Origin: Thiotrichaceae bacterium
GTDB lineage: Bacteria > Pseudomonadota > Gammaproteobacteria > Thiotrichales > Thiotrichaceae
Assembly (NCBI GenBank): GCA_026991755.1
Contig: JALXAX010000070.1
Coordinates: forward strand, 1-64,000
Direction of reading: 5' to 3'
Length of the DNA: 64,000 nucleotides
The notes beneath the pieces are model-generated. The model saw nothing but the letters and a program-made list of their open reading frames with translations, was not told where the DNA came from and made no database searches. The position numbers were made by a program, and so were the translations under genes. Below are positions 41,236 through 62,158 of the stretch, in pieces (the stretch's first letter is position 1; the number at the start of each line of letters is the position of its first letter).

Positions 41236-41339
41236 AATCTCTCTCCACTTGTCGGGGAGTCTGCCTTTTTGGGCGGACTGAGAATTATACCCGTTGAACC
41301 TGATACGGTTGATGCCGTCGTAGGGAACAAGCCGAGATT
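41236..41339 (+). ncRNA. TPP riboswitch (thi box)
   Basis: P1 stem AATCTC/GAGATT encloses GGGGAGTC, a short P3 stem, the core GGACTGAGAATTATACCCG, then TTGAACCTGATACGGTTGATG and CGTAGGGAACA. These are the standard CUGAGA and ACCUGAU/CGUAGGGAA elements of thiamine-pyrophosphate sensors. It lies 115 nt before thiC and should turn the operon off when TPP is high. No U-rich terminator is seen between it and thiC, so control of translation initiation is more likely than termination. Confidence 0.93.
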
Positions 41340-41387
41340 GTTTGTCATCATAGCTATTCTTTCTATTAATCTGCTTAATAATATTGA

Positions 41388-51363: not shown

Positions 51364-52158
51364 TTAAGGCAGATTAACCTGCACCACTTGAGCCTGTCGT
51401 AGCATCTCTTTATTACCTTTGTTAAAAATGACATCCAGCTCATACACTGCGCCATTAGTATCTATCCTCACGGATTCTACGCCCAAGCTATATATCTTGC
51501 CTTTATAGTGCTTTCCTTGAAGGGTAACGGTTGCCGGTTGCCCTTTTCGATAGCGATTTAATATAGGGGCAGTCACCAAAACACGCGCTAGCATTTGGTT
51601 GCTGGGTGCAATGGTTAAAGGCGGTGTTTGTTGTAATGTCTTATAAATTACATCCCCTTCCCAGACATTATGATTAATAATGATAGCTGGGAAAGGCGCA
51701 CGTAATGCAGTACGTTCTAGCGCAATCTTTACAATGGCTTGGGTGGCTTTAGCCGAAGCTTCATCAGCAACAGCGATGGCTTTTTTTAGCTCTGAATCTT
51801 TGAGTTCTTCGTCTGCAATCAAGGCACGTTCGTACAATTCTTCAGTGCGTCCATGCTCACGTAGCGCATCCGCTGTATTGATAGCAGCTCGTGCAACCCG
51901 TGCATCGGCAGCTTTGAGCTTGGCTTTGGCCTCACGCGAGTCCATTTGTAGCAACACATCTCCCTTCTTCACAAATTGCCCGACGGTAACATTCATCTTG
52001 GTGATAATGCCACTTTCCAAAACACGTAATTCAACGGTGTGCAGCCATTCTAAACGGCCTTTAAATTGAGTAGCGTGTAATAGCGTTGGACTCATCACTA
52101 ACCATAAAAAAGAAGTGAGTAGAGCCAGTGTGACGCCATTCTTAATAGAATATTTCAT
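51364..52158 (-). CDS. HlyD/RND-type membrane-fusion (adaptor) protein
   Basis: 264 residues, short for the family. Signal peptide to about residue 30; lipoyl half (VELRVLESGIITKMNVTVGQ, then KKGDVLLQMDSREAK); a helical hairpin of about 70 residues rich in alanine (about 80-145); then the second lipoyl half (LRAPFPAIIINHNVWEGDVI) and a beta-barrel. It starts inside the stop of the TolC-like gene (ATGA). Expected to link an inner-membrane pump to an outer-membrane channel. It is the last gene of the nine-gene minus-strand locus. Confidence 0.87.
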   Translation of the reverse strand: MKYSIKNGVTLALLTSFLWLVMSPTLLHATQFKGRLEWLHTVELRVLESGIITKMNVTVGQFVKKGDVLLQMDSREAKAKLKAADARVARAAINTADALREHGRTEELYERALIADEELKDSELKKAIAVADEASAKATQAIVKIALERTALRAPFPAIIINHNVWEGDVIYKTLQQTPPLTIAPSNQMLARVLVTAPILNRYRKGQPATVTLQGKHYKGKIYSLGVESVRIDTNGAVYELDVIFNKGNKEMLRQAQVVQVNLP

Positions 52159-53177
52159 TGCCCTGCCTCGCTAGTCGCTTGAATGGTTTTGGGAGGTGGC
52201 TCTAATAATGCGTTACCCTGCAAGATATTAAGCTGCGCCCACGTTATATTTAAACAATAACTGATTTGTTGTTGCTGAAACTGGCTTCGGGTTTGTTGAG
52301 CCATCGCATCACCTAAGTCAGCTTTCACCTCTTGTTCATAGAGGGTGCGGCTTTGTTCCAGGTTTAAGTCCTGAAAGTTAGCTGCTTTCTCAAAACGCTT
52401 ATTGGCACTCTTTAAGGCTTCTAATTGCGATAACAGTTCGATACTTAGTTGTTGAAGCTGAATATCGATGAGGCTTTTTTCTGCTGTCTTCAAGTCATCT
52501 TTATAGCGGGATAACCAGCTATTGTTTTTCTTAATAGCCTCTAGTACTGCGCTAAGCTCAGGCAACTCATCGGGAATATGCCAAGCAGGCATAGCAATAA
52601 TATTATTAGGTAGTTTACCAAGATGTCCCATTTCTTGAGCTAATACAGAACGACTCAGACGTTGCGCAAAACCACTGGCTTGATAACGTTGTAATTGCTC
52701 AAAATATTGGCTTTCTTTTTCAGCGACTAATACCTCAGAATATTGTTTCAACTCCATGCGTGTTTTTGCTCGATCATAACGAATATAAGCAATTGACATA
52801 CTTTCGTTATCTGCCATAAAAGCCAAATCAGACAGGTCTACATCAAGATAGCTTTGTAAAATATACAGCTGTTGTAGCTGTTCCATAGAAACCAGAGGGT
52901 AAAGTGAGCTAAAACGCTGTCTGTCAGCACTGTCTAGATTGTTATAAGCCAGTTGATGACAGTTTAAGTAGAGGGGATGTTGGTGTGTGTAATGTTGATT
53001 TTGTTCGCTAGTGAGTTTTAATCTTGGATGCTCTTTTGCATAATCCAGCGCTGTTTTTAGTGGCAGAGGATCCATTAGCTTGAGTGCTTTATCATCCGCT
53101 CGCAGTGGCGAGCTGGCCATTACAGAGCTTGCTATCATACAGAGCATAAGCGCGTTTTTTCGAAGTAGCCTAAGCAC
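52155..53177 (-). CDS. TolC-like outer-membrane efflux protein, short form
   Basis: About 340 residues from the GTG that gives MLRLLRKNALMLCMIASSVM, a good signal peptide; the frame opens at TTG 53213. The body is long heptad-rich helices (KTRMELKQYSEVLVAEKESQ; KSLIDIQLQQLSIELLSQLE; QTRSQFQQQQISYCLNITWA) separated by a proline-rich turn, as in TolC. It is much shorter than usual (about 430-490), and the second half lacks a clear barrel. It is coupled to the adaptor gene downstream. Confidence 0.72.
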   Translation of the reverse strand: MLRLLRKNALMLCMIASSVMASSPLRADDKALKLMDPLPLKTALDYAKEHPRLKLTSEQNQHYTHQHPLYLNCHQLAYNNLDSADRQRFSSLYPLVSMEQLQQLYILQSYLDVDLSDLAFMADNESMSIAYIRYDRAKTRMELKQYSEVLVAEKESQYFEQLQRYQASGFAQRLSRSVLAQEMGHLGKLPNNIIAMPAWHIPDELPELSAVLEAIKKNNSWLSRYKDDLKTAEKSLIDIQLQQLSIELLSQLEALKSANKRFEKAANFQDLNLEQSRTLYEQEVKADLGDAMAQQTRSQFQQQQISYCLNITWAQLNILQGNALLEPPPKTIQATSEAGQ

Positions 53178-53190
53178 AATTATTGAAAGG

Positions 53191-53802
53191 CTATTGGTCA
53201 GATGAAGCGTCAACGCTCACTTTTAGCGCTCGCTTATAGCGAGAGAAGGATTGTTTTTCGTTTTCTTTACTGGCGATAAACTTTCCTAGTAAGAGAAACT
53301 CATCTTTGTTTTTGGTGGCGCCTGTTAGTTTACCGTTTTTAAGTGGTTTTCCGTCTAAATCAAAAAACTGAAAGACAGGTGTAGCACGTACTCGATTTTT
53401 TAGAGAAAAGTCCTTTTGTGTGGTGGAGTCCCCTTTAAAGTTGGTGATCTCAATATCGCCATCAATATCAACACTCATGATGCGAAAGTTTTTATGGAAA
53501 TAGTCTTGAATACTACCGTGGTTTAGCACGGTTGCTTTCATACGTGCACAAAAAGGACAGTTTTCCATTTCGTACATAATCAAGACACCTTGCTTACCAT
53601 TTTCTTTAGCGATGGCTAACTCTTGTTGGTAATCATCAAATGTTTCATCGAAGAATAGCTTGGCTTCACGAGTTTCATTGCTTGTGTCTTTTGTTGAGCT
53701 TTCATCAGCTGGGGGTTGAGCCACTGTTGCTGAGTCTTCTGCATGAAGGGTAGTCGTAAGTATTGCACTTATTAGCAAGGAAGAAAGTAGACGAAATAAC
53801 AT
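53191..53802 (-). CDS. Periplasmic thioredoxin-like protein (SoxW type)
   Basis: 203 residues. Signal peptide ends at LHA (residue 21). A linker is followed by a thioredoxin fold with active site MENCPFCARMK (CPFC), cis-proline loop VRATPVFQFFD and a basic C-terminal tail. AGGAGTC lies before the ATG. Family relatives are SoxW-like and DsbE-like reductants. The LolA-like protein of the same locus has two cysteines, so it could be a substrate; that is inference. Confidence 0.83.
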   Translation of the reverse strand: MLFRLLSSLLISAILTTTLHAEDSATVAQPPADESSTKDTSNETREAKLFFDETFDDYQQELAIAKENGKQGVLIMYEMENCPFCARMKATVLNHGSIQDYFHKNFRIMSVDIDGDIEITNFKGDSTTQKDFSLKNRVRATPVFQFFDLDGKPLKNGKLTGATKNKDEFLLLGKFIASKENEKQSFSRYKRALKVSVDASSDQ

Positions 53803-53885
53803 AAGATGACTCCTAGTGATTGTTCTGGGTGTGCTGGCACTTTCATAGCTTTATTAGTATGGGACGAATTATTGAAAGGGTAAAT

Positions 53886-53920
53886 AGGTATAAGTAGTAA
53901 TTTCGTACTTATTTATACCT
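53886..53920. repeat. Inverted repeat in the barrel-thioredoxin gap
   Basis: AGGTATAAGTA and TACTTATTTATACCT pair with a four-base bulge. This gap (171 bp) is the only large one in the nine-gene locus, so it could be an internal terminator or an operator; no U-tract is obvious. Confidence 0.4.
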
Positions 53921-53973
53921 ACTTTGTTTTACCTTATCCACTCTTTATTTTTAGATGGATGCGTGTGAACGCA

Positions 53974-55161
53974 CTAAAAAAATCGTTGAAACTCAAGCTG
54001 TACAAAGTCATCAGCACGTAATGAATGTAACAAGGGGTCATCTGTCGCATCCGTATCTGTTACGGCCTGAGCCTCGAAGTTAATCTTAATATCATCGCCA
54101 ATTCTACGGCTTGCTTCGATACGCAACGTCTTACTATTACTGTCTAAATCAAACACAGTACCCGCTAATAACTCAGTGCTTTGCGCATCATTTAACGTAA
54201 ATCGTGCGCCTAGAAAAATATCATTTTGAAAAGGTGAGGTGGCTAACTTATCGCGTGAATCTGTATGGTATTCAGCTATTGCACCTAAATCTGCGCTAGA
54301 GTCATTAATGCCCACAAAGGTGTATTCAAATCCACCAACCGCTGCGTTGTATCCTGTATCTGCATTTTCACGACGAATGGCTTCTAGTTTCCACAACCAC
54401 GAATCACTGGTGTATTGAAGATCTAAACCCACTTGCTGTATCTGCCGATAATAAGGCACAAGGCTGGCGCCTACTTGCTGTAACTCAGGCTCACGGGAAG
54501 TGCCATCAAAATAGGATAGCCCTAAATCAACAGCATCAAAGGTATGATTCCAACGAAGTGCATAGTCGATATGACGCTCATCATCGCTTGATTCAAAACG
54601 TGGATTGTCGGTGTCAACCACCAAGGGAGTGCGCAATCGACCACTTGCTCCCGCAAAAGTACGCTCCCTAAAATAAGGCAGAACATACAAACCAATCGAA
54701 CCTTCATCAAAGATTCGGCTAACTCTTAGCATCGGCTGGCCAAGCTTATCTTCACCATCAATATTCTCTACAGAGTCGGTTTGATTAATAATATCGACAA
54801 GATGTTGTGATTCAGTAACCCCCCAAAAGACTTTGCTAATACCCGCTTGATACTCCCAGTCACCCGTTGCAATGGTGGTATCAAGCTGGCGAATATCGCC
54901 GTGGCTGCGCTCATCGTCGTTGTTATCCCAACGATAAAAAGGGATGAAGGTGAATGACTTCCTGTCATTATCCCAGCGTTTACGAAACTCTGGTTGTAAG
55001 CTAATAGAAACATTGCTGTTTTCTTGCAGAGGATATAATCCATTATGCGAGAAATAACGCCCCTCTACTGCGATATTTCCAGAAACATCGGCTTGCAGTG
55101 AAGTGGTTAGTGAAGTCATCAACAGGCTGGTTAATAAAGCCGTACGGGTCTTCATGTTCAT
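53974..55161 (-). CDS. Outer-membrane beta-barrel protein of the RND/LolA locus
   Basis: 395 residues with a signal peptide (to about LQADVS). The mature part is dense in amphipathic strands ending in phenylalanine (DDFVQLEFQRFF), the outer-membrane insertion signal. Features such as GDWEYQAGISKVFWGVTESQ and GQPMLRVSRIFDEGSIGLYV recall porin-like proteins encoded beside MMPL permeases. I cannot name a family with certainty. AAAGGA lies 8 nt before the ATG. It probably accepts or passes the exported molecule. Confidence 0.75.
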   Translation of the reverse strand: MNMKTRTALLTSLLMTSLTTSLQADVSGNIAVEGRYFSHNGLYPLQENSNVSISLQPEFRKRWDNDRKSFTFIPFYRWDNNDDERSHGDIRQLDTTIATGDWEYQAGISKVFWGVTESQHLVDIINQTDSVENIDGEDKLGQPMLRVSRIFDEGSIGLYVLPYFRERTFAGASGRLRTPLVVDTDNPRFESSDDERHIDYALRWNHTFDAVDLGLSYFDGTSREPELQQVGASLVPYYRQIQQVGLDLQYTSDSWLWKLEAIRRENADTGYNAAVGGFEYTFVGINDSSADLGAIAEYHTDSRDKLATSPFQNDIFLGARFTLNDAQSTELLAGTVFDLDSNSKTLRIEASRRIGDDIKINFEAQAVTDTDATDDPLLHSLRADDFVQLEFQRFF

Positions 55162-55194
55162 TTATTTATTCCTTTAAATTCTATAGTGGGATGG

Positions 55195-55650
55195 TTATAA
55201 CCAACGTCTAACCGATTGTTTGTAATCAAGATAGTTATCACCGAACTTCGTTTCCAATACCTGCTCTTCAGGGATAATTTGTTGCACGTTAAGTACCACA
55301 ATAAAGAGTGGAATTAATAGGAAAGGGCTAAGGCTACCTAAAAATACAGCCCACCCTGTCAATAAAAGCGCAAGCCCTACATACATGGGGTTGCGGGTGT
55401 ATTGATACATCCCCGTTGTTACCAGTTTACTAGCACTATTAGGGTTAAAGGGATTGGGCGATGTTTTGCGTCTAAAAAATAAAAACAACGAAGACAAATC
55501 CAGTGATAATGCAGTTGCGATAACTACTAAACCCATTTTATTCCACGGTGATGAAACAATTTCCATCAAGGGCAAGTGTTGGTTTAATAGCCACATACAA
55601 CCTGCAAATATCAACATATAACCAGGTGGAGGGATTTTCAGTTTTAACAT
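55195..55650 (-). CDS. Isoprenylcysteine carboxyl methyltransferase-like membrane protein
   Basis: 151 residues, four or five membrane helices. NPMYVGLALLLTGWAVFLGS with the preceding TGMYQYTRNP, and EEQVLETKFGDNYLDYKQSV at the end, are the PEMT/ICMT signature for SAM-dependent methyl transfer to lipid-like thiols or amines. The real substrate in bacteria is generally unknown. It lies 37 bp after the LolA-like gene and 33 bp before the barrel gene. Confidence 0.85.
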   Translation of the reverse strand: MLKLKIPPPGYMLIFAGCMWLLNQHLPLMEIVSSPWNKMGLVVIATALSLDLSSLFLFFRRKTSPNPFNPNSASKLVTTGMYQYTRNPMYVGLALLLTGWAVFLGSLSPFLLIPLFIVVLNVQQIIPEEQVLETKFGDNYLDYKQSVRRWL

Positions 55651-55687
55651 TTATTACTCCTTTGCCGCTCAAAGCAAATGTTATGGA

Positions 55688-56473
55688 TTATCGCCTTTGT
55701 AGCGAGTTTTTATTAAAGTCTCTGCTGGTTAAGCCATTACGAAACTTATAGTTAGACCAAGTAAGCGTTGTACTTTTTCCTGTTAGGTGATTCTGCATAT
55801 TCATCGTTGCAGGTCTCCAGTAGTGACCAATGTATTGCTTATAGCCAGAGCTAACTAGCGTCTTTAACTTGGCATTTTTACGATCATAAAAATCCACTTT
55901 AACTAAGCGATGCTCTTTGGTGTCTGACCAAACTACTTGTCTAGAGTAGCCAGAGTATTGATAAGCAGGTTTGCGCTCAACCACATTACAGGTCCAGCCG
56001 CTACCACAGGGCTCTTCACGCAGGAAGTTGTAGGTATATTTTTCAACTTCTTGAGAGCCTAAGTCCTCAAAAGCAAATTCGCTACCCATAAATGGGCCTG
56101 ATTTATTACGTGAGTTAATACGTTTTACGCGACGTAATGCGGGTAGGTATAACCATTGGTCATCTGCTTTTAAGCCATGTGTATAAGTCAGCATCGTAGT
56201 GCCTTTTACATCAGCGGGAGAGTCGAATAACGACATGCTTTTGTCTCCATCACCGTTCACTTCCAACGTTTTGATGCGAATATTTCGCGTGCTGGTTTTA
56301 CCTGCGCGGTTTTTCAAGATCATTTTCATATCTGCGGTTAGATCTTTAAAACCATTGTCACGGGCATCGGCTTCTTTAGCAATCCTTAAGCCTTTTTCTT
56401 GACTGGTTTCTGCATGTGCAACAGATGCCATTAGACCAAGACAGGTTGCTAGAATGATTTTTTTTATTTTCAT
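55688..56473 (-). CDS. Outer membrane lipoprotein-sorting (LolA-like) protein
   Basis: 261 residues. Signal peptide ends at AHA. The mature protein has a LolA/LolB-type half-barrel: FKDLTADMKMILKNRAGKTS, KSMSLFDSPADVKGTTMLTY, DDQWLYLPALRRVKRINSRN and FAFEDLGSQEVEKYTYNFL. Members of this family (PF17131-like) sit next to MMPL permeases and are thought to carry a hydrophobic cargo through the periplasm. Two cysteines (EEPCGSGWTCNV) could form a disulfide. Confidence 0.88.
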   Translation of the reverse strand: MKIKKIILATCLGLMASVAHAETSQEKGLRIAKEADARDNGFKDLTADMKMILKNRAGKTSTRNIRIKTLEVNGDGDKSMSLFDSPADVKGTTMLTYTHGLKADDQWLYLPALRRVKRINSRNKSGPFMGSEFAFEDLGSQEVEKYTYNFLREEPCGSGWTCNVVERKPAYQYSGYSRQVVWSDTKEHRLVKVDFYDRKNAKLKTLVSSGYKQYIGHYWRPATMNMQNHLTGKSTTLTWSNYKFRNGLTSRDFNKNSLQRR

Positions 56474-56509
56474 GATGTTATTTCCATTATTGTAACTAGG
56501 GTATCTCTA

Positions 56510-56932
56510 TTAGTGAGTAAGGAGTTTGATAAATAACCAAACCCAAAGCGCTAGCAACAATAAGCTACTAACTAAAAAAATATTTCTACGTTGTAATAAT
56601 TTATTCGTACCGATATGAATATAAGCGTGAATAACACGGCTAGCAAGGTAGCCCCATGCTAAAACAACACTGGCACTATCAACGTTGTGAGTGATGAATA
56701 GTAAAATACACACCACATAAAACAGCATCGGCATTTCAAATAAGTTTTCATAATGCTGCGTCACTTGCACTAAATAACTAGGTAGTTTCCCACCCCGATT
56801 TTCTTTAAAGTAGCGCGGGTTTAAGCCATTTTCTAGCACGGCACGATATCGACACTTTAGTAAATAAACCGATACCGTAACGGTCAGTACAACCATAGCA
56901 ATCAAAGGAAAAATAATACTTTCTGGATTCAT
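56510..56932 (-). CDS. MAPEG family membrane protein
   Basis: 140 residues with four membrane helices. KCRYRAVLENGLNPRYFKEN, then VQVTQHYENLFEMPMLFYVV, and ASRVIHAYIHIGTNKLLQRR follow the MAPEG pattern (ENxxE/P and RxxH). Eukaryotic members are glutathione-dependent enzymes on lipids; the bacterial role is unknown. Only 12 bp follow the RND stop, so it is in the same operon. Confidence 0.87.
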   Translation of the reverse strand: MNPESIIFPLIAMVVLTVTVSVYLLKCRYRAVLENGLNPRYFKENRGGKLPSYLVQVTQHYENLFEMPMLFYVVCILLFITHNVDSASVVLAWGYLASRVIHAYIHIGTNKLLQRRNIFLVSSLLLLALWVWLFIKLLTH

Positions 56933-56944
56933 AGCTTACCTGTC

Positions 56945-59299
56945 CTATAAGGTTTCGTTTACGGTAGCAGATTTAAGTTCAACGCTTTCATCTTCATTGA
57001 GCCATTTATCTAACATAATCAATAAAGGCGGGAGAAATAAGAAATCAGCGATTAAGGCAAAGGCGATAACCACAGAAGTTAGTAACCCCATTTCTGAGTT
57101 CAGTGCAAATGAAGAAGTAGAAATCACCATAAAGCCACCAATCAAGGCGATGGATGTTACCCATAAAGCACTACCTACCGTGGAGAAGGCATAACGAACC
57201 GCCTCTTCTGCTGATAGCCCTTGTTCGCGTTTTGCTCTCAAGTATTTGCTTAAAAAGTGTACTGTATCATCAACCACGATTCCAATGGTCATTGAGGTTA
57301 CGACGGATAGCCCTAAGCCAATTTGACCATCAACCACCGCCCATAATCCAAATGCCAAGCCAGCAGGCATCAAGTTGGGGATAAGGCTAACCAACCCGTA
57401 ACGCGCTGATCGTAAGGCAATAATTAAAATAAATGATATCAGTGTAAGTGCGGTAGCTGCACCTATTAATAAGCTAACAATATTTTTCATACCAATATGC
57501 GCAAACATAATGGAGGGGCTTGACCCCCACGTTTGTATCGATGGAGTATTTTGATGCATCCAGTCTTGCACGCGTTGTTCGAAGTCTAAAATCTCTTGGG
57601 TTGAGATAGTTTTCATCGTAACCGTTAAACGTGTTGATTGTTTACTGATGTCGATTTGATTGTTTAAATCTAAACCATAAGGTAGTGACATTTCGTATAA
57701 CAATAAATACTGCGCCGCTAAATCTTGCTGTTCAGGTAATGCATATTGCGCATCATCATCACCATGCATATTACGATTCAAACGCTTCATAATATCGGTG
57801 AGCGTATTGACGTGAATAACTTCAGGCTGGGTGCGTAGCCAATTACTGAAATCTTCAACTTGCTGTAGGTATTTAGGCTCAGACACACTATCGGTTTCTG
57901 TTGATTTTAGTGAGAAGTCTACAAAGTAAATACCCGTTAGGTTTTTTACAATAAAGTCGGTATCCGTACGGAACTGAATACGCTCATCAAAGTATTCTAC
58001 AAAGACATCATTTAGCTCATTTTTAGGTAAGAATGAGATAAGAATTATCGACACAATCCCCATGCCTATCAGTAGTTTCTTTTGGTATTTGATAACAAAA
58101 TTTGCCAGCTTATCCATACCCATAGGTGAGCTTTCTGTTTCTTTTTTCTTGATTTTTGAAGGCAGTAGCGTCACTAATGCAGGCATAAAGGCGACTGATA
58201 AAACCCAGGCAAAAATGACCCCTAAAGCAGAAATATTACCCAAATCTCTAAATGGAGGCGCATCACTAAAGTTAAGGCTCAAGAAGCCGATAGCTGTTGT
58301 CACCGAGGTCAGAAAAACGGGACCAAAGTTAATGCGCATACTTTCCCGCATAGCATTGATTTTATCCATACCTTTGCGCATACCCTGTATCCAGTTGGAG
58401 AGAATATGCACACAATCGGCAACTGCCAACGTCATAATAATAGTCGGTGCCGACATAGCGGGAGGTGATAAGTGAATACCAAGCCAACCCGCACTGCCCA
58501 TTGCTGCGATGACTGAAAAAATAATCACGAGTAGCGTTGCAAAGGTGCCTGCGATACCACGCAATAAAAAGTAAACCAAAGCCAGGATAATGAGAATAGC
58601 TAGGGGAATCAGGTGGCTCATATCGTACATAGACGCTTCAGGAAAGGCATTATTCATCATCACAATGCCACTGAGATACACATCCAAATCAGGGTAAGTT
58701 GTGTGAATATAGCTTTCAAGTGCACGAATAGAATTGACGATTTCAGGGATTTCTTTAGTGACATCAATTTCGGGCTGTTCAACACTGATATTAACCGTAG
58801 TCACGTGGCCTTTTTCAGAAATTAATCGATGCACCATTAACGGTTCATGCAGCGCAATATCGCGGATTTCTTGCAATGCTTTGGGGGTTAGAGAATCAGC
58901 ATCTTCCACTAAATCACGTACGGTTAAATCATCGCCATCTGCTGAGGTATGCTGAAAGTTGGTAACAGAATCGACTCGGATGGAATAGGGTGTTTGCCAA
59001 GCCCGTTCAGTAATATCGGCAACCGCTGCTAGCGTTTCTTTGGTGAAAACATTGCCATCCTTGGGAGCGATAGCCATGATGACACTATCGTTTTTAGTAT
59101 AAGTATCTTGCAAGTTCTCAAAGGCAATCAACTGTGGGTTGTCACCGTCAAAAAAGATACGGTAATCATTATCAAACTTTAATAAACGCGCGCCACTACC
59201 TAATGCAAAAACGAGAAAAAGAGATAACAGTAAGGCTAACCAACGGTTTTGCATTATCCAGTCTGCGTATCTTTCATTAAGGCTGTTTTTAATGTTCAT
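56945..59299 (-). CDS. MMPL/RND-family permease
   Basis: 784 residues built as two halves, each with one helix, a periplasmic loop (about 36-215 and 430-610) and five more helices. The conserved proton-relay region is present in each half: TLAVADCVHILSNWIQGMRK and IGIVVDDTVHFLSKYLRAKR. It resembles HpnN and MmpL-type lipid exporters more than AcrB (about 1040 residues). With the LolA-like, MAPEG and ICMT-like partners, a lipid or amphiphile substrate is likely. It starts 38 bp after the TetR gene. Confidence 0.9.
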   Translation of the reverse strand: MNIKNSLNERYADWIMQNRWLALLLSLFLVFALGSGARLLKFDNDYRIFFDGDNPQLIAFENLQDTYTKNDSVIMAIAPKDGNVFTKETLAAVADITERAWQTPYSIRVDSVTNFQHTSADGDDLTVRDLVEDADSLTPKALQEIRDIALHEPLMVHRLISEKGHVTTVNISVEQPEIDVTKEIPEIVNSIRALESYIHTTYPDLDVYLSGIVMMNNAFPEASMYDMSHLIPLAILIILALVYFLLRGIAGTFATLLVIIFSVIAAMGSAGWLGIHLSPPAMSAPTIIMTLAVADCVHILSNWIQGMRKGMDKINAMRESMRINFGPVFLTSVTTAIGFLSLNFSDAPPFRDLGNISALGVIFAWVLSVAFMPALVTLLPSKIKKKETESSPMGMDKLANFVIKYQKKLLIGMGIVSIILISFLPKNELNDVFVEYFDERIQFRTDTDFIVKNLTGIYFVDFSLKSTETDSVSEPKYLQQVEDFSNWLRTQPEVIHVNTLTDIMKRLNRNMHGDDDAQYALPEQQDLAAQYLLLYEMSLPYGLDLNNQIDISKQSTRLTVTMKTISTQEILDFEQRVQDWMHQNTPSIQTWGSSPSIMFAHIGMKNIVSLLIGAATALTLISFILIIALRSARYGLVSLIPNLMPAGLAFGLWAVVDGQIGLGLSVVTSMTIGIVVDDTVHFLSKYLRAKREQGLSAEEAVRYAFSTVGSALWVTSIALIGGFMVISTSSFALNSEMGLLTSVVIAFALIADFLFLPPLLIMLDKWLNEDESVELKSATVNETL

Positions 59300-59337
59300 G
59301 CTCGTCCTTTGCTATTATTAATTGGTTGATATTGTAG

Positions 59338-60054
59338 CTATTTATTAGTTAATGTCGATACCCAATCTTCTGGGCGCGATGCACTGAGAATATTAATTAA
59401 GCCGCCCCCACAGTCCATCAGCAGCGATATATCTTGCGCGCTTTTAGCCATTGCGATACAGCCTTCTAATGTGGCGATAAACACTGCGGAAAATTGTTTG
59501 GCATTGAGTTTTTTTGCCACGTAGCCATTGGCTTTTCCGTGCTCAAGACTTTCTTCAATAGCTTTTCGCCAAGTGCTATAGGTTTTTTCTAAACGCTGTC
59601 GAAAGCCTTCATCAATGGATGACATTTCTTGAGATAAGTTACTGAGAGGGCAACCGAGCTCGATATCTTCCATCGTCATTTGTTCACCTGCATCAATAAT
59701 AATGTGCTGCAATGCACGGATAGGATCTTTTTGATGTGTTAATGGGTTGATCCACATTTCCAGTACAGATTCGTGGATGATTTCATCAACTACGGCATAG
59801 CCTAATTCATTCTTATTAGGGAAATGATGGTAAAGCGCACCTTTGGAAAGTCCTGTGCTTTTTAGAATATTTTGCAGGCTAGCCGCTTGGAAACCTACGC
59901 GATGAATTTCAGTAAAAGCAGCCATTAAAATTTTCTGTCGAGTTTCATCCGATGCGGTGCTGTTATCATGGTGGCTACACTTACACGATAACATTTGCCA
60001 CCAAGGCATGTCTTTTTTTGAGTCAGATGAATGGGTAGGACTATCAGTTATCAT
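59338..60054 (-). CDS. TetR/AcrR-family repressor
   Basis: 238 residues from ATG 60054. The helix-turn-helix is ETRQKILMAAFTEIHRVGFQ plus STGLSKGALYHHFPNKNELG (about residues 40-85), and a C-terminal ligand-binding helical domain follows. The first 35 residues carry CKCSHHD, a possible metal-binding or redox segment that is unusual for the family. The frame is open to 60141, but that would cross the palindromic operator. It is the first gene of the RND locus and probably represses it and perhaps the divergent radical SAM gene. Confidence 0.88.
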   Translation of the reverse strand: MITDSPTHSSDSKKDMPWWQMLSCKCSHHDNSTASDETRQKILMAAFTEIHRVGFQAASLQNILKSTGLSKGALYHHFPNKNELGYAVVDEIIHESVLEMWINPLTHQKDPIRALQHIIIDAGEQMTMEDIELGCPLSNLSQEMSSIDEGFRQRLEKTYSTWRKAIEESLEHGKANGYVAKKLNAKQFSAVFIATLEGCIAMAKSAQDISLLMDCGGGLINILSASRPEDWVSTLTNK

Positions 60055-60122
60055 GCTATATGCCTGTCTTTTAACGACTAATTCCTTTAAAGTGGATATA
60101 TTACAATAGAAAACTATACATT

Positions 60123-60138
60123 CATACCAGTCGGTATG
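60123..60138. promoter_or_regulatory. Candidate TetR operator
   Basis: CATACC-agtc-GGTATG, a perfect 6-bp inverted repeat in the intergenic region between tetR and the radical SAM gene. ATACCnnnnGGTAT-type sites are typical of TetR-family operators. It lies about 70 bp before the tetR start and 125 bp before the radical SAM start. Confidence 0.65.
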
Positions 60139-60262
60139 CAACTATAAATAAGTATCAGCAATTAAACTAGGCTACAATTCTTTGTCTTTAATTAGGTTCC
60201 TATCACGCTCTTAACCACACCCTACCTAGAAAGGAGCACAGAGCGGAGCAGATCGTTATTCT

Positions 60263-62158
60263 ATGAAAACACTCTTCCTAACCCCCCCGATGACTCAGCT
60301 GAATACGGCCTATCCAGCCACGGCCTATTTAACGGGTTTCTTGCGACAAGAAGGTTATGAAGCAGCGCAGCGTGATTTAGCAATAGAACTCTTATTAACC
60401 CTGCTATCTCAACAAGGTTTACAAGCCATCTTGGAACGTATTGAGGATAACTTTGCAGATACTGAAGACGCAGATTTGCCTGACTCCATCTACCACTTCT
60501 TCACCCATTACGAGCTGTACCATACTCGCGTAGAACCGACGATTCGTTTCTTGCAAGGTAAAGATCCCAGCCTTGCCATTCGTATTGCATTGCGTAGCTT
60601 TTTGCCCGAAGGTCCAAAGTTTTCCAGCCTGTCGGACATGGAAGAAACAGTAGGCGATGTTCTAAATTGGGCATTTGGTGATCTTGGTACACAAGACAAA
60701 GCCAAGTATTTAGCCACGCTCTTTATTGATGACCTCGTTGATATTATTCATGATGGCGTAGACCCTTACTTCGAAATCTCGCGCTATGGTGAGAAGCTAG
60801 CCGCATCCAATCCCTCTTTTGATGATTTATATGCCGTACTGCAAGATGAGCTGACTTTTAGTGAACAGGGTATTCGCCAGTTGCTAGACCGCTATCTGGC
60901 AGACGAGGCACCTGATCTAGTCGCCATTACCGTGCCTTTTCCTGGCAATATGCTGGGCGCTTTACAAATCGGTAAATACCTAAAAGAAATCGCTCCTCAT
61001 ATAAAAATTGCACTAGGTGGCGGTTACGTTAATACCGAATTACGCTCATTGACCGACGCCAGAGTGTTTGAATACTGTGATTATATTTTGCTGGATGATG
61101 GTGAGCGCCCGTTGCTGTCATTGCTCGAGCACTTAAAACATCAGCGACCTATTGATGAGCTGGTTAGAACTTTTCATCTTGATAATAACGAGGTGGTTTA
61201 TACCAACAACAATACACTAGCCGATATTCCCCACAAAGATGTCGGAACGCCTACTTATGACGGTTTACCGCTTGATGATTACCTGTCGTTATGTGAAATG
61301 CTCAACGCCATGCACAGAATCTGGAGTGATGGACGTTGGAATAAACTGACGATTGCCCACGGCTGTTACTGGTCAAAATGTAGCTTTTGTGATGTGAGTT
61401 TGGACTACATTGGGCGATACGATGAAGCAGGTGCAGACATTATTATTGATCGTATCGAAACGTTAATAGCAGAAACAGGACAAACAGGTTTCCACTTTGT
61501 AGACGAAGCAGCCCCACCCAAAGTACTGTTTGCCATGGCGGAAAAGCTGATCGAAAAAGGTATCACCATAACGTGGTGGGGTAATATTCGTTTTGAAAAG
61601 ACGTTTACGCCCGAAAAATGTCAACTGCTAGCAGACTCAGGCTGTATTGCTATTAGTGGAGGATTGGAAGTTGCCTCAGACCGTTTACTGGCATTAATGA
61701 AAAAAGGCGTAACCGTGCAACAAGTGGCAAAAGTCACCCGTGGCTTTGCTGATGCAGGAATCCTGGTTCATGCTTATCTTATGTACGGCTTCCCCACACA
61801 AACAGAAGCTGAAACCGTGTTATCGCTAGAGTACGTGCGCCAACTCATGCAAAACAACTGCTTTCAGTCGGCTTATTGGCATCGTTTTAGTGCAACCATA
61901 CATAGCCCCGTTGGCTTACAACCACAAGAATATAGCATTGTATTACAACCCCCTAAACAAGCTACTTTTGCCAATAATGACGTGATGTTTGTTGATAACA
62001 CAGAAGTCGATCACGACATGCTAGGTAGAGGTTTAAAGAAAGCACTGTACAACTATATGCATGGCATTGGTTTTGATGAGCCTTTGAGTTTTTGGTTTGA
62101 GCAGGAAGTTGAATTACCGCTTATTGGATCTGACTTTATTGCTCGTTCGTTACAGTAG
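60263..62158 (+). CDS. B12-binding-type radical SAM protein
   Basis: 631 residues. The N-terminal third (MKTLFLTPPMTQLNTAYPAT, then ITVPFPGNMLGALQIGKYLK and KIALGGGYVNTEL) is a cobalamin-binding-like fold. The radical SAM domain carries the cluster motif HGCYWSKCSFCD with Cys368, Cys373 and Cys376, a CX4CX2C spacing instead of CX3CX2C. The later ISGGLEVASDRLLALMKKG and LVHAYLMYGFPTQTEAETV fit the methyltransferase/tailoring class. The substrate is unknown. It is divergent from tetR and may belong to the same regulon. Confidence 0.85.
   Translation: MKTLFLTPPMTQLNTAYPATAYLTGFLRQEGYEAAQRDLAIELLLTLLSQQGLQAILERIEDNFADTEDADLPDSIYHFFTHYELYHTRVEPTIRFLQGKDPSLAIRIALRSFLPEGPKFSSLSDMEETVGDVLNWAFGDLGTQDKAKYLATLFIDDLVDIIHDGVDPYFEISRYGEKLAASNPSFDDLYAVLQDELTFSEQGIRQLLDRYLADEAPDLVAITVPFPGNMLGALQIGKYLKEIAPHIKIALGGGYVNTELRSLTDARVFEYCDYILLDDGERPLLSLLEHLKHQRPIDELVRTFHLDNNEVVYTNNNTLADIPHKDVGTPTYDGLPLDDYLSLCEMLNAMHRIWSDGRWNKLTIAHGCYWSKCSFCDVSLDYIGRYDEAGADIIIDRIETLIAETGQTGFHFVDEAAPPKVLFAMAEKLIEKGITITWWGNIRFEKTFTPEKCQLLADSGCIAISGGLEVASDRLLALMKKGVTVQQVAKVTRGFADAGILVHAYLMYGFPTQTEAETVLSLEYVRQLMQNNCFQSAYWHRFSATIHSPVGLQPQEYSIVLQPPKQATFANNDVMFVDNTEVDHDMLGRGLKKALYNYMHGIGFDEPLSFWFEQEVELPLIGSDFIARSLQ

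Follow-up and report, generated by a model that had tools for sequence, protein, structure and literature searches.

The wider question addressed here is how hydrophobic molecules pass across the periplasm without a TolC-type tunnel. Judged by its parts, the nearest characterised counterpart of the genes described below would be AmeABCD of Castellaniella defragrans, an apolar monoterpene efflux system made up of AmeA (DUF1302), AmeB (DUF1329), AmeC (YCF48) and the HAE3 permease AmeD (PMC6394551); it is also the only system of this transporter class for which we found a deletion study in the open literature searched. Thalassolituus oleivorans possesses an MMPL-LolA fusion beside a porin (TOL_3187/TOL_3188), which was up 42-fold on C28 alkane (PMC6304351), and the aryl polyene cluster of E. 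coli encodes, in ApeL/ApeM/ApeN, an RND permease together with a LolA-like carrier (PMC8253772). Proton-driven RND export is likewise the work of the HAE1 tripartite pumps of AcrAB-TolC type.

The locus compared with these systems lies in the window, i.e. the whole stretch of 64,000 nucleotides of Thiotrichaceae DNA that was analysed, where nine intact ORFs, all on the minus strand, occupy positions 51364–60138. They are as tightly packed as the first-pass annotation had described them, with intergenic gaps, from the TetR gene downstream, of 38, 12, 36, 37, 33 and 171 bp and a 4-bp ATGA overlap between the 'TolC-like' and adaptor genes. Domain searches upheld that annotation's labels of TetR, MMPL, MAPEG, LolA_like, ICMT-like, thioredoxin and adaptor, and AlphaFold2 that of the barrel, whereas the label 'TolC-like' stayed unconfirmed in shallow tests. 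The nine genes had furthermore been taken for a single set, which did not hold: the neighbourhood counts given below separate the last three genes, and the locus consists of two adjacent gene sets, namely a widely conserved module A (TetR, MMPL permease, LolA-like carrier and outer-membrane barrel) and an unrelated three-gene module B.

In outline, module A resembles AmeABCD, as both combine an MMPL permease, HAE3 in AmeABCD and putatively of that type in module A, a LolA-fold periplasmic protein (the carrier of module A passes the DUF1329 cut-off) and an outer-membrane barrel, in module A putatively DUF1302-related by profile comparison. Unlike AmeABCD, module A has a carrier of PF17131 type with 261 aa (451 in AmeABCD) and a barrel of 395 aa without a Pfam DUF1302 match, adds TetR, its operator and a methyltransferase, and has no known terpene-island location. 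Membership of the AmeABCD type is not claimed, since the operon holds no AmeC (YCF48) gene and the barrel test is indirect. The TOL_3187/TOL_3188 genes, likened to those of the window by their description, look like a fused version of the module A parts, with MMPL and LolA-like portions ahead of a putative porin that lacks known domains; what is known of them is proteomic induction on the long alkane C28. ApeL/ApeM/ApeN differ from module A in having a LolB-like acceptor in place of the barrel and full biosynthetic genes alongside, and module A, unlike the HAE1 pumps, is without its own adaptor or TolC channel.

Gene neighbourhood and parts of module A

The surroundings of the LolA-like gene were sampled on 29 contigs of the order and at 72 loci of named genomes and searched with profiles of all nine proteins, with counts restricted to loci with enough flank. 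The loci were picked by the LolA-like gene alone, so that the association of the other genes was free to fail. Among named genomes, MAGs of Thiotrichaceae, Leucothrix and Cocleimonas came nearest, which makes Thiotrichaceae the most likely family of the window's organism. The MMPL gene was situated upstream of the LolA-like gene at 26/26 Thiotrichaceae and 56/60 other loci, the barrel gene downstream of it at 21/23 and 52/63, and a TetR gene nearby at 21/21 and 30/51, respectively; a few of the 'other' loci are from the same genera, and these counts are not fully independent. The order TetR-MMPL-LolA-barrel is kept in Gammaproteobacteria, Nitrospinota, Nitrospirota and Desulfobacterota, and since it is constant across several phyla, mostly in uncultured bacteria, the arrangement is beyond chance. 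The recurring MMPL and LolA-like pair noted at first pass is thus real, and together with an outer-membrane barrel under TetR it forms a widely conserved unit. The proposed wider association of this pair with MAPEG and ICMT-like genes stood for the ICMT-like gene in Thiotrichaceae only (19/23 loci, against 0/63 elsewhere) and failed for MAPEG (0/21 Thiotrichaceae and 1/52 other loci). No lipid-biosynthesis genes recurred beside the core at the sampled loci, and no relatives were found on viral contigs.

The MMPL-type RND permease (56945–59299, minus strand; PF03176, 115 bits) has as its best NCBIfam model HAE3 TIGR00921, with 152 bits against a cut-off of 351.9, and its residues D677-D678 in the second transmembrane repeat are conserved. 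With the HpnN model TIGR03480 it reached 94.5 bits, far below the cut-off of 751.85. The secreted LolA-like periplasmic carrier (55688–56473, minus strand) matches PF17131 with 201 bits and DUF1329 (PF07044) with 35.6 bits (cut-off 23.1). It is closely related by sequence (E 7.9e-86) to the putative lipoprotein-sorting protein 3BK5 of the Protein Data Bank, known as a solved structure only and without an established function (PMC6394551). We rejected the possibility that the carrier is the housekeeping LolA, as it belongs to PF17131 and the canonical PF03548 LolA is encoded on another contig (G000:C207:25313-25804).

The outer-membrane barrel (53974–55161, minus strand) was modelled confidently by AlphaFold2 (pLDDT 90) with approximately 18 strands. 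It has no match in Pfam, DUF1302 included, and in the PDB only generic porin/AlgE-type matches (TM about 0.5–0.6) were obtained, so that assignment to a family known there was dropped. In profile-profile comparison, it aligned at 97.5% probability with a DUF1302 set in which divergent members were included (0.2% for the reversed control) and with the divergent members alone at 98.4%, but gave no signal (2.9%) with strong, typical members alone. The barrel is therefore probably a distant relative of DUF1302 (AmeA), by a link that fails when typical members only are used.

Two membrane proteins accompany these parts. The ICMT/PEMT-type membrane methyltransferase (55195–55650, minus strand; PF04191, 49.7 bits) has conserved RNPMY and EE motifs, consistent with an active ICMT-like enzyme, and its gene appears to be a family-specific addition to module A in Thiotrichaceae. 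The MAPEG membrane protein (56510–56932, minus strand; PF01124, 68 bits) has homologues that relatives encode on other contigs, and its gene is apparently an insertion into the operon seen only in the window's genome.

In relatives, other lineage-specific genes were found inserted 3' of the LolA-like gene, encoding an OmpO-like porin (L050:6181-6774), a DUF2306 membrane protein (L044:10413-10787) and a TfoX_N protein (L139:9678-10022). On a Pseudoalteromonas plasmid (L256:4640-13186) the MMPL-LolA pair adjoins a gamma-mobile-trio element, which suggests that the pair can move, and on a plasmid of Sulfitobacter dubius (L257:1-7792) a Type I polyketide synthase gene is followed by MMPL and LolA-like genes.

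The palindrome upstream of tetR

The TetR-family regulator (59338–60141, minus strand; PF00440, PF21993) is AcuR/YxaF/NemR-like and would start at ATG 60054 or TTG 60141. Its cysteines were considered as a redox sensor, an idea that was dropped, as they occur in only 62–69% of relatives. Upstream of tetR lies a palindromic putative operator, CATACCAGTCGGTATG (60123–60138; consensus CATACYRRYYRGTATG), which reads CATACCGACTGGTATG on the coding strand. An exact copy precedes tetR at all 21 testable Thiotrichaceae loci, and 12 of 31 tetR genes in other lineages have an upstream site at ≤2 mismatches, with few or none matching in 100 shuffles each. Both core and operator exist in Sinimarinibacterium flocculans DSM 104150, a relative that can be cultured. 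These data support the TetR control that had been supposed earlier, and position and conservation suggest that TetR itself binds the palindrome. We found no description of the core or the operator, and no record of the exact operator letters, in the open literature, to which our coverage is limited.

Across the order, 58 distinct operator sites were detected in 30/63 genomes (reversed-pattern control, 0). The operator is present in 27/29 genomes carrying the LolA-like gene and in 0/16 genomes of genus g8, which is without that gene. The 3.66-Mb genome of the window has a single site matching CATACYRRYYRGTATG, and still one at 1 mismatch. In eight genomes, an off-locus site is placed directly before an operon of an adaptor and an AcrB-type permease; the putative regulon, short as its list of genes is, thus appears to include a classical exporter in relatives, and this HAE1 pump would share it with module A. 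The orthologue of this pump in the window's own genome (G000:C153, 44% identity) has no operator nearby, and co-regulation is therefore shown in relatives only. In two genomes (G021 and G026), operator pairs precede ICMT-barrel operons separated from the rest of module A; because these detached pairs keep their operators, regulation as well as position appears to tie the ICMT-like and barrel genes to the TetR regulon. The palindrome thereby defines a putative regulon whose targets speak for the export of some noxious or hydrophobic molecule, the link to a drug-type efflux pump in relatives being a first clue to the job of module A.

Two further genes adjoin operator sites. An operator of the same type lies directly before an af470-like monooxygenase gene (PF13826; L238:4011-4512, G006:C57). 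In the window, a B12-binding radical SAM gene (60263–62158, plus strand) is divergent from tetR with a common operator region and could be a further target; such a gene also adjoins tetR in a close relative (L039).

Candidate roles of module A

With somewhat better than even confidence, we read module A as an exporter whose cargo would be a small hydrophobic molecule or a compound resembling a lipid, kept under TetR repression and operating much as AmeABCD does. The repressor would sit on the palindrome until a lipophilic ligand frees it; the proton-driven permease would then collect the cargo from the periplasm or the inner membrane and pass it, through contacts that we infer, to the LolA-like carrier for delivery at the outer-membrane barrel. 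The ICMT-like membrane methyltransferase may modify the cargo beforehand in Thiotrichaceae, as may the MAPEG enzyme in the window's genome. The operator together with the carrier-bound ligand would offer a handle on this transporter class. Against the exporter reading stand the single operator in the window's genome, its pump orthologue without one, the missing AmeC (YCF48) partner, the loss of the DUF1302 link with typical members alone, and the pairs of Sulfitobacter (with its polyketide synthase) and of E. coli (ApeLM; PMC8253772), from which related MMPL-LolA pairs may rather serve to place endogenous lipids. A bolder and unlikely extension is a two-tier defence against lipophiles, in which one TetR palindrome would govern both the AcrB-type pump and an MMPL/LolA-like/DUF1302-like relay with cargo capped by the methyltransferase, the relay being a widespread alternative to the TolC channel.

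HpnN and MmpL3 relatives are lipid carriers, which counts in favour of the rival reading that module A serves the assembly or upkeep of the outer membrane, moving a lipid of the cell's own (polyketide-, hopanoid- or aryl-polyene-like) there from the inner membrane. The Sulfitobacter association of polyketide synthase, MMPL and LolA-like genes and the membrane methyltransferase in the operon fit the same reading, as does the role proposed for ApeL/M/N with aryl polyenes (PMC8253772). We nevertheless consider it rather unlikely: the core is not recurrently accompanied by lipid-biosynthesis genes, the operator is common to an AcrB-type pump in relatives, and module A is not housekeeping, since it is repressor-controlled and many related genomes of the order lack it. 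The first-pass proposal of a lipid that is modified and then inserted or exported remains conjectural, and given the regulon shared with the pump, export of a small hydrophobic compound is a better fit than a part in membrane building. Module A could conversely take up lipophiles, hydrocarbons among them, with the barrel as entry pore; this would suit the strong induction of the MMPL-LolA fusion and adjacent porin on C28 alkane (PMC6304351), but is quite improbable given that RND permeases normally export, that the regulon is common to an exporter in relatives and that deletion of AmeABCD raised dye accumulation (PMC6394551).

Module B and the 171-bp gap

Module B encodes a periplasmic CPFC thioredoxin (53191–53802; PF13098), a helical secreted protein, the putative 'TolC-like' one (52155–53213), and a short RND-type adaptor of 264 aa (51364–52158; TIGR01730, 125 bits, over the cut-off), all on the minus strand. 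The 'TolC-like' protein had no match in Pfam, NCBIfam or the PDB in shallow tests and reached 0.2% in hhalign, with shallow profiles, against the genome's four own OEP proteins; its single-sequence structure model (pLDDT 40) was unusable. Absence of the last three genes beside the first six had been named at first pass as evidence against a single set, and as regards co-occurrence the loci showed such an absence. The thioredoxin and 'TolC-like' genes were found near the LolA-like gene at 0/17 Thiotrichaceae and 0/41 other loci (0/58), and the adaptor gene at 0/17 and 1/41, respectively. The trio occurs together in three genomes (G012, G017 and G016) whose LolA-like gene is on a different contig, and also in genus g8 genomes without any LolA-like gene. 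Because module B was nowhere found behind module A in relatives and occurs alone without it, the 171-bp gap, earlier suspected as a split, is taken as the real boundary, and module B as a separate unit downstream of module A by happenstance. A strong hairpin in the gap (53882–53924, minus strand; inverted repeat, z -3.9) has no T-run and is therefore not a standard terminator. The neighbourhood counts led us to reject a nine-gene unit, and one trans-envelope machine of all nine genes, for which the common strand and short gaps speak, is extremely improbable in view of those 58 loci, the trio found elsewhere, the hairpin, and the missing operator upstream of module B (consensus search of its own genome, 1 mismatch included).

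Module B recurs as such in the order, where relatives likewise have the adaptor gene after the 'TolC-like' one. Both thioredoxin cysteines are conserved in it, and so are C85 and C320 of the 'TolC-like' protein, which suggests that the thioredoxin acts on a disulfide of the protein encoded beside it. Elsewhere in the window, a TPP riboswitch (Rfam RF00059, 69.5 bits) was detected at 41243–41343 on the plus strand.
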